The notes beneath the pieces were generated by a model, which saw only the letters and a program-made list of their open reading frames with translations, was not told the origin of the DNA and searched no databases. The position numbers and the translations under genes were made by a program. Positions 57,405 through 64,000 of a stretch of 64,000 nucleotides of DNA are shown piece after piece. The stretch lies in contig JAGXHJ010000034.1 in the NCBI GenBank assembly GCA_024636315.1, positions 27,016 to 91,015 on the forward strand. The letters are read 5' to 3'. The first letter of the stretch is position 1. Each line of letters starts with the position of its first letter. Source of the stretch: Methylophaga sp. GTDB lineage: Bacteria > Pseudomonadota > Gammaproteobacteria > Nitrosococcales > Methylophagaceae.

Positions 57405-58793
57405 TTACAGTTTATATTTATCCATTCGGTATCGCATTGCCATACGAGTGAGCCCCAACTCCCTAGCAGCTTGTGACACATTATTAGTTGTCCGCTGCAA
57501 GGCGCGTTCGATCAGATGTTTTTCAACCTCATCTAAAGTCATTTTTTCTAATTCATTCAGCATTGGCAAAGCGATTGTATCTGCTCTAGATGATGTGCCC
57601 ATTTTTAAAATTAAATCGTCAGCATGAATTTGTTCATCTCGACATAACATTACAGCACGCTCTAACACATGCTGTAACTCCCTTATATTTCCCGGCCATG
57701 AATAGAGTAGCAAAGACTGTAAAGCATCTTGGAACAACTCTGGTGGTTTTAATCCATAACGTCGAGCAATCTTTTCTATAAAATGCTGAGCCAAAAGTGG
57801 GATATCTTCACTTCGCTCAGATAATCGAGGAAGCTCGAGCTCCAATACATTTAAACGAAAATAGAGATCTGAACGAAATAGGCCTTCAGCAACCATGTCG
57901 TCTAAATTACGATTTGTTGCCGCTACAAAATGTGCTAATACAGGATATTCTTTAGTGGAACCTAAACGCCTAGCGACGCGGCGCTCTATCACATTTAATA
58001 ATTTTGCTTGCAAGGCTAATGTTAACTCTCCAACCTCATCTAAAAATAAGGTACCGCCTTCAGCTACTTCGATAAGCCCTACTTTAGTCTGATGCGCATT
58101 AGTAAAAGCACCTCGCTCATAACCAAAAAGCTCAGCTTCAATTAACTCACTGGGCAGTGAGGCACAATCAACATGGACAAATGGCCGCATATGCCAATCA
58201 CCTAGTTGGTGATATAAGCGAGCGGCAACATCCTTTCCCGTACCCGTTTCACCACGAATCAACACTACAGGATGGCTACCGCTACTATTTGTCACTAATT
58301 GTGCAATTCGGCTAAGATGGTGACGGACATTAAGTGATGCCTTACTGCTTCCAATCATCTCTATAGCATCTAATGCTTGCTGATCACGGACATGCGAATA
58401 TGTTAACTGCTGTTTGATTTGTTGAGTTGCTAAAACTTTCGATATAGTTAATACCAAGTCATCAAGATCAACTGGTTTTTTTAAATAATCTGTCGCTCCT
58501 AATTTCATGGCCGCAATAGCATCATCTAATTCGCCATAGGCGGTCATCACAATCACCGGCAAAGATTTCCAGCTCACATCATCTCGTGAGCGAATCTCAG
58601 CTAATAAATCTAGGCCATTGCCATCAGGCAATCGAATATCTAGTAGCAAAAGATCGGGCAGTGCTGATGTAATAGCGTTACGTGCATCAGCTATCGTTGA
58701 AACGATACTTCCTTCATACCCTTCTTTTTGCAAACGTCTCAATACAGATTTGGCAAATAATGTCTCATCTTCAACTAACAACACATTTATCAT
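57405..58793 (-). CDS. Sigma-54-type (NtrC-like) response regulator with GAFTNA loop
   Basis: ORF; receiver domain (LLVEDETLF, DLLLLDIRLPDGNG, YLKKPVD), AAA+ (GETGTGKD, GYERGAFTNAHQ, GGTLFLDEVGEL), Fis-type HTH. Confidence 0.95.
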   Translation of the reverse strand: MINVLLVEDETLFAKSVLRRLQKEGYEGSIVSTIADARNAITSALPDLLLLDIRLPDGNGLDLLAEIRSRDDVSWKSLPVIVMTAYGELDDAIAAMKLGATDYLKKPVDLDDLVLTISKVLATQQIKQQLTYSHVRDQQALDAIEMIGSSKASLNVRHHLSRIAQLVTNSSGSHPVVLIRGETGTGKDVAARLYHQLGDWHMRPFVHVDCASLPSELIEAELFGYERGAFTNAHQTKVGLIEVAEGGTLFLDEVGELTLALQAKLLNVIERRVARRLGSTKEYPVLAHFVAATNRNLDDMVAEGLFRSDLYFRLNVLELELPRLSERSEDIPLLAQHFIEKIARRYGLKPPELFQDALQSLLLYSWPGNIRELQHVLERAVMLCRDEQIHADDLILKMGTSSRADTIALPMLNELEKMTLDEVEKHLIERALQRTTNNVSQAARELGLTRMAMRYRMDKYKL

Positions 58794-58820
58794 AAAGTCA
58801 TTTTTACCTTATCTGTTATT

Positions 58821-60269
58821 CTAAGAGCTTAGGGTATTGAGAGTAATCGTGACAGCGGTGCCATCAGTATCTGAGCTGTCGTATGCTAAGCTTCCGCCAT
58901 GTTGCTTAATTATTTTCAATGAAAAAGGAATCCCTAGACCACAACTTAAACGTTTAACGTCACCATCTGTCACTTGTTCCGCCACAGGATCAAATGTCAT
59001 GCCACGGCCATGATCGTGAATCGTCAGTGATACCTTATTGCCATATTGACGATAAACAAGTTGAATGACATTGCCCGCGGATGATGCTTCTAGGGCATTC
59101 TGGACTAAATTGAAAATGGCTTGTTCAAACAAATGAATATCTAGTAATAAAGTGACAGCTGGTTTCTGCCATCCTAAACGTTGTAAAGAAATATTTTTAT
59201 CTGCTAACTGTAGCTCGATCAGTGATAAGGCATTATCCGTTACCGCGATCAAAGTTGTATTACTTAAATGTGGTTTTATTGGATGTAAATAACGTAATAA
59301 CGCTGTCACCCATCGTTCTAGTCGATCAACAGCTACTATAATATCGGTCAAGGTATCGCGAGTAGAGTCAGCAATATCTTCGTCCCGAGCCACTTGAGAA
59401 GCCGCCCGAATCCCTGCTAGAGGATTTCGAATATTATGAGCTACTAATGGCACTAACTCACCTAGTGCAGCTTGTTTCTTAGTTTCAAATAAACGGTCGC
59501 GACTATTGGCCAACTCTAAGGCCATACTATTAATTGCTTGTGACAATTGCACTAAGTTTGAGACACCAATCACAGGAACTTTGTGATTCAAATCACCCTT
59601 GCTTATTAACCTAGCGCCTTCTACAAGCTCGCTCAGTGGATACACTACATTTTTGCGTACAAATCGACGTGCAAGTATCAGTAAGCCAATAGCAAGTAAC
59701 ACTGGAATAGGTGCAAGCCAAGTTAAACGTTGCGTCCATTGTTGTTTCGATAGCGATAATGCCATTTTCTTGTTATGAAGCAACTGATCTAAGTTACTAA
59801 AAGCTTGTTCTAATTGGGCAAATGTATATTTTTCTAATTCTTTATCAAGTAACTTCTGACGGTCAATGATCGCGTTTCCATGATCAAGCAACTGTTCTGT
59901 TTTAGTATGAAAGGCATCATAAGCATTATCAACAAGCTGAACGGCTTCTAGCTCTTGTTGGTCGTTGGCTAATAACGTCATGTCTCGCAAATAGTCTTGA
60001 ATTGAATTAGTGTAAGCCAGATATTCCTTAGAAGCGTCATTGTCATGCAAAAACGTCGCGTCAAATACCTCTTTTAACTGCCGATAAACATCGCCACGAA
60101 TATTCTGCATCGTCGCATTCATTGACCCTATGCGTAAGGACTCTTCGGAGCTACTCTGCCATGAGGCCGACCATATAATCCCCACCATTCCTGTTATTAG
60201 CACAAGTAAAATAAAACTTAACTCATGTAATAATAGAGTAGTTTGAAGTGAGTTAAATCGCTTAACCAT
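58821..60269 (-). CDS. Membrane sensor histidine kinase
   Basis: ORF; two TM segments flanking a helical periplasmic region, HAMP-like segment, H-box PLVAHNIRNPLAGIRAASQ, N-box FNLVQNALEAS, G-box HDHGRGM. Confidence 0.95.
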   Translation of the reverse strand: MVKRFNSLQTTLLLHELSFILLVLITGMVGIIWSASWQSSSEESLRIGSMNATMQNIRGDVYRQLKEVFDATFLHDNDASKEYLAYTNSIQDYLRDMTLLANDQQELEAVQLVDNAYDAFHTKTEQLLDHGNAIIDRQKLLDKELEKYTFAQLEQAFSNLDQLLHNKKMALSLSKQQWTQRLTWLAPIPVLLAIGLLILARRFVRKNVVYPLSELVEGARLISKGDLNHKVPVIGVSNLVQLSQAINSMALELANSRDRLFETKKQAALGELVPLVAHNIRNPLAGIRAASQVARDEDIADSTRDTLTDIIVAVDRLERWVTALLRYLHPIKPHLSNTTLIAVTDNALSLIELQLADKNISLQRLGWQKPAVTLLLDIHLFEQAIFNLVQNALEASSAGNVIQLVYRQYGNKVSLTIHDHGRGMTFDPVAEQVTDGDVKRLSCGLGIPFSLKIIKQHGGSLAYDSSDTDGTAVTITLNTLSS

Positions 60270-61083: not shown

Positions 61084-61548
61084 ATGACTAACAAACGATT
61101 CGTAAAAATTGCCATTGTACTGGCATTGTTTATTACCGCTATAACAGGGTGCTCAAAAAGTGAGCCCATCAAAATATACCAATTGAAGAGTGATTATAGC
61201 TTTGAAGAAACCTTGTTAAACCTTGATCTTGCAATTTCAGAGCATAACTATCGCATTATTCACCGCAGTCAAATTGGTCAAGCCATACGAGATCGTGGTG
61301 ATAAAGACTTTCCACTGTCGACTATCACTAATTTCTGCAATATTACTTACGCTAAAGAAATGATGGAAATCAATCCCGATCTAATTAACGAAATGCCATG
61401 TACTATCGCCATTCGAGAACAAGTGGGACAAGGCATTATTGTAAGCAGTAGACTCATGGATGAACACACTCCAAATGAGAAACAGAATGAATTTGCATTA
61501 AAAATTAATAATAACCTGAAATCAATAATTGCGGCTACTGTTGAATAG
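61084..61548 (+). CDS. DUF302-like lipoprotein
   Basis: ORF; lipobox ITGC; DYSFEETLLNLDLAISEHNYRII...FCNITYAKEMMEINPDLINEMPCTIAIRE resembles DUF302. Confidence 0.75.
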   Translation: MTNKRFVKIAIVLALFITAITGCSKSEPIKIYQLKSDYSFEETLLNLDLAISEHNYRIIHRSQIGQAIRDRGDKDFPLSTITNFCNITYAKEMMEINPDLINEMPCTIAIREQVGQGIIVSSRLMDEHTPNEKQNEFALKINNNLKSIIAATVE

Positions 61549-61560
61549 CCGCAATTATTG
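61523..61560. terminator. 15-bp perfect inverted repeat spanning the lipoprotein stop codon, between convergent genes
   Basis: CAATAATTGCGGCTA-CTGTTGAA-TAGCCGCAATTATTG; T-rich on + side; TAG stop is the first 3 nt of the right arm. Confidence 0.75.
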
Positions 61561-61567
61561 CAGTGTT

Positions 61568-62836
61568 TTATTTTTCTATTTGTTCTGGTCGACCTTCACC
61601 TAAAGCACCATCTGAACGCGCTTTTAAGTATGCATAAAGGTCACTAATATGCGGACGAATATTTGGATCGTCAGACCACGTTGGCATTTTAAATTTAGTT
61701 ACACCTTGTTCACCAGCAACTTGGCTCAAAAATGCTAGGCGACGATCTGGGTCATCCAAATTTACCTTGGCAAAATAACGATGCAATACTTTCTTCCTAA
61801 ACTTAAACTCACTCATACCTTCAAGACTTGTCAGTAAATTGGGTGCTATATCAGTTCCAGTTGCGTTTTGACCATGACAGACAAAGCAAGTTGAGTTAAA
61901 TAAACGCCAACCTACGAATGTTTTATTATCAACCTTGCCATTTTCAATGGTATATACCGCTCGTTTTGTCTTCTCAGTGTGTTTCACGTTGGCTAGCGAA
62001 GGCATATTGTATTGTGCAATAATTGTTGCGATATCGTCTTTACGTTTTTCTAAAATCTGATTTAGAAGGCTTTGCCACTCCGCATCTTGAGGACGAACCC
62101 CCATACCAAAGCTAAACACGTAATCTGAGCCAATTTCATTAAGTGGCACCACAGTCATCGCAACATCTGATTGAGAGGCATAAAAACCAGCAACAGGTCC
62201 CCATGCAAAGGCAACATCAATGCGGCCAGAGGCTAATTCTTCAGTGATTATTCGACCACTATTAATACGAGCATCACCCGGCATCATTTGAAAATATTGA
62301 ATGTGATCTTCAAGACCATCTTTTATCAACGTTTCTGTTGCTATGGCGCGATCAAACAAGCCAATTTTCAGTTTTTTGCCTTGTGCGTGTAATTTAGCAA
62401 TATCTGATATTTCAGTTAACTCATAGCCCTCGCCTTTACGGTAGACCATCGAATCGATCGAGCTAAAGTAGGGTGTCGTGGGTAAATACATTCCTCGTTC
62501 TGCAGGAATACTCATCGCGACATCACACAAAAATTTTCCGGTTTGAGGATCAACTTTTTTAATCGTATTGCGACTAAAGCCAATTCGCTGTGGGAACCAA
62601 TAATATTCAACTGGTAGCCCTAATTCTTCACCAACAATAGTGGCGATCTTATTATCAAAGCCTTCTAACGCTTTATTGGAATATGGTAAATTAAAGGCAT
62701 CGGCACAAACTTTTACTGAAGTTTGCCCTGGCAAAGGTTTAAAGTCTGCAGCATCAGCCATAGTAGTAATGCAGATCAAACCTACAAAAAGGTATGAGAA
62801 TACCCTAGTTATTGTCATCATTAATTCCTTATTCAA
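61568..62836 (-). CDS. XoxJ/MxaJ-like periplasmic binding domain fused to XoxG-like cytochrome c
   Basis: ORF; signal peptide, VKVCADAFNLPYSNKALEGFDNKIATIVGEELGLPVEYYWFPQRIGF...CDVAMSIPAE (MoxJ-like), then YTIENGKVDNKTFVGWRLFNSTCFVCHGQNATGTDIAPNL (CxxCH cytochrome c). Confidence 0.88.
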   Translation of the reverse strand: MNKELMMTITRVFSYLFVGLICITTMADAADFKPLPGQTSVKVCADAFNLPYSNKALEGFDNKIATIVGEELGLPVEYYWFPQRIGFSRNTIKKVDPQTGKFLCDVAMSIPAERGMYLPTTPYFSSIDSMVYRKGEGYELTEISDIAKLHAQGKKLKIGLFDRAIATETLIKDGLEDHIQYFQMMPGDARINSGRIITEELASGRIDVAFAWGPVAGFYASQSDVAMTVVPLNEIGSDYVFSFGMGVRPQDAEWQSLLNQILEKRKDDIATIIAQYNMPSLANVKHTEKTKRAVYTIENGKVDNKTFVGWRLFNSTCFVCHGQNATGTDIAPNLLTSLEGMSEFKFRKKVLHRYFAKVNLDDPDRRLAFLSQVAGEQGVTKFKMPTWSDDPNIRPHISDLYAYLKARSDGALGEGRPEQIEK

Positions 62837-62867: not shown

Positions 62868-62926
62868 TGACCATAGCCATCAATTAAATATCCCTAATTG
62901 GATCTTTTAATTGATGGCTATGGTCA
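62868..62926. repeat. 21-bp perfect inverted repeat in the xoxF / xoxJG intergenic region
   Basis: TGACCATAGCCATCAATTAAA (62868-62888) / 17-nt spacer / TTTAATTGATGGCTATGGTCA (62906-62926); spacer contains ATCC-CTAATT-GGAT. Confidence 0.95.
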
Positions 62927-62934
62927 TAAAATCA

Positions 62935-62966
62935 TAAAAAAAAAGCCCGACACAAGTGCCGAGCTT
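62935..62966 (-). terminator. Terminator downstream of xoxF
   Basis: Minus strand: AAGCTCGGCAC-TT-GTGTCGGGCTT followed by a T run; two G:U wobbles on the minus strand become A/C mismatches on the plus strand, so it is directional. Confidence 0.8.
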
Positions 62967-63012
62967 CTTTATTAAGGTTTTATCTATTAAAAAAGATTAA
63001 TAAATAAAGGTC

Positions 63013-64000
63013 TTATAGGCTAAATACGCTTAAGATACCACCCAAGTTAGTCCAGCTAGATAGCGCTTTGTAAGCACCTACCGCACCAAGACCATCTGTG
63101 TCGTTTTCTAAGCTAGGGATAGCCATACCGATACCAGCCCAACCACCAACACCAGACAAGACTGAGACGAACTGTTTGCCATCATGCTTGTAAGTGTTCA
63201 CGTTGCCGATGATACCTGACGCAGTTTTGAATCTATAAAGCTCACGACCTGATTGAGCATCGACTGCTTTAAGATAACCTTCTAATGTACCGTAGAACAC
63301 AAGATCAGATGCAGTAGCTAACGCACCACCCCATGCTGAGAAACGTTCTGGGTTAGACCATACGATCTTACCTACACGTGCATCCCAAGCAATGAAGTTA
63401 CCTAAGTGTGTGCCACCTGGTGCTGGGTACATGTTTAATGTCGCACCAACATACGGTTGACCCGCAGTGTATTCAACTTCAAACGGTTCATAATCCATAC
63501 ATACGTGGTTTGTTGGAACATAGTACAAACCAGTACGTGGAGAGTATGCAGCCGGTTGTTGATCTTTAGAACCTAATGCAGCAGGACAAATACCTGTTGT
63601 ATTTACATCAGCGCCGTTACGAGCCGTTGAGTATTTAGCAACACGATCATGAAGACCTGTTTTAAGATCAACACCGTTAGACCAGTTCACTGCTGGATCG
63701 TATTTTTGAGCGACTAACAATTCACCCGTTACGCGATCCATGGTGTAACCAAAACCGTTACGATCGAAATGCACTAACGTTTTACGCATTTTACCGTTGA
63801 TTTTTTGATCTGCTAAAGGTACTTCATTGATACCGTCATAATCCCATTCATCGTATGGCGTCATTTGGTATACCCATTTCGCCATACCTGTATCTAAATC
63901 ACGACCAAATAAAGACATGGACCATTTGTTGTCACCAGGCCGTTGTGCAGGGTTCCATGTAGATGGGTTACCTGAACCGTAGTAGAACATGTTCAAATCA
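63013..64000 (-). CDS. xoxF: XoxF-type PQQ methanol dehydrogenase (partial, N-terminal part beyond window)
   Basis: [100 protein letters not shown]; frame remains open to 64000 (track start at 63996 is a TTG inside the gene). Confidence 0.96.

Follow-up and report, generated by a model that had tools for sequence, protein, structure and literature searches.

The window analysed here, a stretch of 64,000 nucleotides from a genome of an uncultured methylotroph of the Methylophagaceae, carries on its minus strand, in the order of transcription, xoxF (to 63013), an intrinsic terminator, a long hairpin, and xoxJG. Both genes serve methanol oxidation of the lanthanide-dependent type. The features of this locus are as follows.

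63013-63999, minus strand: 3′ part of xoxF (PQQ methanol dehydrogenase; PF01011), continuing beyond the window.
62939-62970, minus strand: xoxF intrinsic terminator, AAAGAAGCTCGGCACTTGTGTCGGGCTTTTTT, then more T; found by a terminator scan and near-invariant in the genus.
62922-62956, minus strand: candidate xoxJG promoter overlapping the terminator, with −35-like TTGTGT and weak −10 candidates TATGAT or TTTTAT.
62868-62926, minus strand: long hairpin in the putative xoxJG leader, supported by repeat search, folding, and both-sided pair changes in relatives.
62906-62926, minus strand: 5′ arm of the hairpin in the sense of xoxF/xoxJG transcription, TGACCATAGCCATCAATTAAA.
62868-62888, minus strand: 3′ arm of the hairpin, TTTAATTGATGGCTATGGTCA.
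62826-62830, minus strand: xoxJG Shine-Dalgarno sequence AAGGA, as read from the sequence.
61568-62821, minus strand: xoxJG, a fusion of an XoxJ-type periplasmic binding domain and a C-terminal c-type cytochrome (XoxG-like) domain (TIGR03871, TIGR03874).

The two profiles match xoxJG with E-values of 1.3e-62 (TIGR03871, just under the cut-off) and 8e-19 (TIGR03874, below the cut-off). The gene most likely starts at the ATG at 62818 (or 62821) rather than at the TTG at 62836; the nearest relative (G006) retains only the ATG equivalent to 62818. The AAGGA site lies outside the stem of the hairpin, about 38 nt downstream of it, and is not occluded. Matching loci were found in Methylophaga sp. and in metagenome assemblies labelled Piscirickettsiaceae or gammaproteobacterial, two of the loci being on scaffolds that carry the label Methylophagaceae, and a search of viral contigs returned no XoxJG relative. 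The fusion of XoxJ with the cytochrome is present in only part of the genus, the remaining members matching the XoxJ part alone (approximately residues 1-295). Several further features surround the locus. Before the terminator, the xoxF 3′ UTR contains an imperfect, A+T-rich hairpin (62976-63011), which many relatives also have in varying sequence. Where the DUF302 gene (plus strand) and xoxJG (minus strand) converge, a 15-bp perfect inverted repeat (61523-61560) is likely to be their shared bidirectional terminator. Genes for a histidine kinase and an NtrC-type response regulator follow downstream of xoxJG on the same strand (57405-60269).

The earlier note on this DNA described a 21-bp perfect inverted repeat between xoxF and xoxJG, and its description of the repeat is borne out exactly. 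The arms, of 21 nt each (62868-62888 and 62906-62926), are 100% complementary and are separated by a 17-nt spacer, TATCCCTAATTGGATCT, which contains ATCC-CTAATT-GGAT. The predicted architecture is a 21-bp perfect stem followed by a 2x1 internal loop, a 4-bp inner stem, and a 6-nt loop. The folding energy of the region is −51.4 kcal/mol, compared with a mean of −20.3 for shuffled sequences (z = −9.6; 0/200 shuffles as good). Within the 64-kb window, no other perfect inverted repeat with a loop of up to 40 nt is as long, the runner-up having 15 bp, and the chance expectation for arms of at least 21 nt in 64 kb is approximately 1e-6. A background sample of 380 kb, made up of stretches from the genome of the window and two congeners and including the 23-bp copy of the nearest relative, held one further 21-bp perfect repeat besides that orthologous copy, so long palindromes do turn up now and then in this lineage. 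The additional repeat, CATAATAAAAGGGGGAAGTTG-ATA-CAACTTCCCCCTTTTATTATG, lies in the nearest relative (L089:17271-17315) and is likewise without a T-tract. Comparison with Rfam 15 gave 27 weak matches, 0 of them at gathering score, so the hairpin belongs to none of its families, and a plasmid collection gave no match.

As the earlier note had stated, no T-tract flanks the repeat on either strand, and a separate T-tailed xoxF hairpin is present, namely the terminator at 62939-62970. An intrinsic terminator was considered for the long hairpin itself and rejected: no U-tract follows the stem, and the terminator scan gives only 62939-62970. The hairpin resembles intrinsic terminators in being a stem-loop between genes; it differs from them in lacking a T-tract, in its A+T-rich stem, and in the true terminator lying just upstream.

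The distribution of the hairpin is narrow. The assembly that contains the window comprises 2.36 Mb in 113 contigs and is 88% complete; in it, a pattern search allowing 3 mismatches found the repeat arm at the xox locus only, apart from a third match with 3 mismatches inside a GGDEF/EAL reading frame, which is a chance match. BLASTN comparison with this and related genomes, proposed in the earlier note, placed the repeat in the xoxF-xoxJG spacer and nowhere else: among 57 family genomes, convincing matches were confined to that spacer in the genome of the window (G000), in G006 (91%), and in a third genome, G005 (72%). A covariance model made from five hairpins and run on 29 genus genomes gave strong scores at the places of those five only, with a single significant match in each genome and in every case between xoxF and xoxJG; such a model is circular for its own members and informative on the absence of a second locus. 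The structure given to covariance model R1 is two outer pairs short (insertion columns), which leaves the conclusion unaffected, since R1 serves here solely to show that no other locus exists in the genomes scanned. The best of the weak covariance-model matches, L107 in G025, proved to be a terminator-like hairpin.

When 30 relatives were compared, five genomes (G000, G006, G005, G028, and G008) had a spacer of 115-119 nt after the terminator, each with a hairpin in the corresponding position. They form a single clade in a tree of XoxJ (support 0.90). Most other members of the genus have 47-76 nt of unrelated sequence after the terminator; in a few, the unrelated spacer is longer, and there are sister species without any hairpin in this spacer. 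The stems of G028 and G008 differ in sequence from the other three. A model built from the first three genomes found G008 only, on the opposite strand and with an E-value of 0.02, and did not find G028; the homology of these two stems is therefore positional, resting on location, spacer length, and a shared CTATTAA and not on score. Other blocks are shared between the xoxF terminator and xoxJ elsewhere in the genus. In a different sub-clade, L059 and L065 have in common a block of about 30 nt, TTCGGGATTATTTCCTAGG..., and in Methylophaga proper (L066-L069) there is another conserved block, GAAACAAATATGTTAG or close variants, which is perhaps the own xoxJ promoter of that group.

Pairing is kept in these relatives while the stem sequence changes. 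Comparison of G000 with G006 shows one stem pair altered on both sides (G-C to A-T), and comparison of these two with G005 shows two more (C-G to T-A and T-A to C-G). The outer stem of G005 has decayed, with four to five pairs broken. The continuous stem measures 21 bp in G000 and 23 bp in G006, compared with about 9-14 bp in G005, G028, and G008. In the three unambiguous homologues, with three both-sided pair changes, 90.7% of the cells are paired, compared with 27-48% in slid controls. For a 12-bp core in all five genomes, the values are 91.7% and 21-44%, again with three both-sided changes, and the covariation score was reached by 1/500 shuffles; the alignment of this core was hand-cut along the stem and hence leans towards it, and the five genomes provide four distinct sequences. 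RNAalifold, applied to a plain MAFFT alignment of the five spacers, also predicts the hairpin, with 6 pairs altered on both sides and pairing kept, its covariation term being slightly unfavourable because of the broken pairs in G005 and the register differences in G028 and G008. Conservation of stem versus flank in the two closest genomes (2/50 vs about 8/55, p = 0.10) shows a trend only.

Across the genus, the xoxF terminator, GCCCGGCACTTGTGTCGGGC with its T-tract (62939-62970 in the window; also the spacers in L049-L070), hardly varies, and TATATT or TATAGT stands behind it at a constant distance. When 20 spacers are anchored on the CGGGC of the terminator, the information content drops to 0.07 bits at offset 11, reaches 1.5 bits at offsets 12 and 14, and fades past 18. 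TATA occurs at offset 12 in 12 of the 20 genomes, and no other offset is represented by more than two. At the matching place, these 12 relatives have TATATT, TATAGT, or TATATC, and the −35-like hexamer TTGTGT lies 17 bp away. In the window, this hexamer sits in the loop and 3′ stem of the terminator, with the −10 candidates just behind the T-tract; it is a poor match (3/6), and its conservation is confounded with that of the terminator stem. Taken together, the TATA box and TTGTGT look like a sigma-70 promoter of xoxJG that overlaps the xoxF terminator. A general sigma-70 scan reported no site in the window itself. In G000, G006, and G005, the TATA box is moved or weakened (TATGAT, TATAAT, and TATGAT, respectively, at offset 7-8), and TTTTAT or TATTAT at offset 12-13 are alternative −10 candidates.

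From the fixed offset of the TATA box, we infer that the 5′ end of the xoxJG transcript would lie at the hairpin base or within several nucleotides of it. A start placed 7 nt after any of the −10 candidates falls at the base or some nucleotides inside the 5′ arm. G000, G006, and G005 have lost the TATA at the fixed position and their −10 candidates are uncertain, so the 5′ end may in these genomes lie inside the 5′ arm. Leaders folded from the putative starts keep a stem that is 5′-terminal or nearly so.

Our favoured reading is that the hairpin is a 5′-proximal stem-loop of the xoxJG mRNA leader which stabilises or insulates that mRNA, and we tentatively assign it a probability of about 45%. 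According to this proposal, xoxF transcripts would end at the strong intrinsic terminator, and a weak promoter embedded in it, together with some readthrough, would provide a separate xoxJG transcript. The first nucleotides of this RNA would fold into the long stem-loop ahead of the ribosome-binding site. Placed at the 5′ end or directly beside it, the stem may slow the attack of RppH and RNase E and insulate the leader, which would give xoxJG mRNA a longer half-life. The earlier note had listed an RNA role among its options, including stabilisation of the xoxF 3′ end, by which the xoxF:xoxJG stoichiometry might be set. The both-sided pair changes speak for a role of the RNA, while its assignment to the xoxF 3′ end is not favoured: xoxF already ends at a conserved terminator, and this, with the position of the hairpin, argues for the xoxJG 5′ leader instead.

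There is precedent for such a leader. Emory in 1992 and Bricker and Belasco in 1999 reportedly described 5′-terminal stem-loops that stabilise the ompA and papA mRNAs of E. coli. The xoxJG leader would share with them a stable stem-loop at or near the 5′ end and a ribosome-binding site left free, here about 38 nt downstream. It differs in that the xox stem is long and perfectly paired, the gene and the lineage are unrelated, and the 5′ end is placed from sequence alone. Judging by the works listed in PMC3997798, stabilisation of mRNA by 5′ stem-loops is an established phenomenon.

The main rival to the leader reading is upkeep of the palindrome without any function. In this process, template switching would copy one arm onto the other; complementarity would thereby be preserved, and the arms would give the appearance of co-evolution although the RNA does nothing. 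It is known that perfect stems can be created and restored in this way (PMC8794818). The two closest genomes have a perfect stem of 21-23 bp with zero G-U pairs, which is more perfect than an RNA function needs. Against G005, the 3′ arm of G000 aligns clearly and its outer 5′ arm does not, a pattern that would fit the rewriting of a single arm. Arms that are perfect and change together are also what is seen in hairpins attributed to quasipalindrome correction (PMC8794818, PMC7202029). Unlike those, the xox structure is retained at one locus across a whole clade, that is, through five species in which the surrounding spacer diverges. On the mRNA strand, the diverged stems have some G-U pairs and, less often, A-C mismatches (two versus one per genome), which hints at constraint on the RNA, in numbers too small to count. 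We regard this explanation as unlikely, though a serious contender.

RNA processing, another role considered in the earlier note, would take the form of RNase III cutting readthrough RNA from xoxF into xoxJG at its 21-bp (plus 4) duplex and so parting the two messages. In G000 and G006, the duplex is long and perfectly paired, as would suit a double-strand-specific nuclease, and a readthrough transcript would carry it. It shares with known intergenic RNase III stems a long unbroken duplex, here placed between genes of a single pathway. However, about two turns of uninterrupted duplex, as the enzyme is expected to require, are found in G000 and G006 only; the other three relatives keep a continuous stem that is short for RNase III. 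The terminator upstream, a further difference from such stems, already separates the messages. This makes RNase III processing improbable.

The option of a DNA operator, with the inverted repeat as the binding site of an xoxJG regulator, draws on the dyad symmetry of the repeat and on its overlap with the presumed promoter start region. It is disfavoured because the stem sequence varies among relatives while pairing is kept, so that no half-site sequence is conserved, and because there is no second site in the own genome or the genus; moreover, with arms of 21 nt and a spacer of 17 nt the repeat does not resemble usual operators. We therefore hold it to be quite improbable. A dispersed palindromic element (REP/MITE-like) that landed in the xox spacer, also raised in the earlier note, would fit spacers that are about one hairpin longer in this clade than in many sisters, but it is contradicted, and left scarcely credible, by the single locus in the assembly (the only other weak match being that inside the GGDEF/EAL gene), the absence of copies elsewhere in the 57 family genomes or by structure model, and the lack of any visible target-site duplication.

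In methanol dehydrogenase systems, many more copies of XoxF are expected to be needed than of XoxJG, which is its electron acceptor and partner protein. To our knowledge, little is known at the RNA level about how methylotrophs set the XoxF:XoxJG ratio. An open-access paper on Methylosinus sporium mentions xoxF, a transcription start site, and a terminator together, and the literature as searched held no paper on a hairpin in the xoxF-xoxJG spacer. A bolder form of the leader reading, in which terminator, embedded promoter, and 5′ hairpin would make up a compact module for the XoxF:XoxJG ratio and the hairpin would be a lineage-specific regulatory leader, for example one responsive to lanthanides, seems very improbable. 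Leader and intergenic hairpins are commonplace, and the xox hairpin is a modest, locally conserved example limited to one clade. It provides a small natural case for telling selection on RNA pairing from palindrome repair by template switching. Together, the TATA box seen genus-wide behind the xoxF terminator and the hairpin that this clade has where xoxJG mRNA probably begins offer a concrete and easily testable layout for this gene pair.
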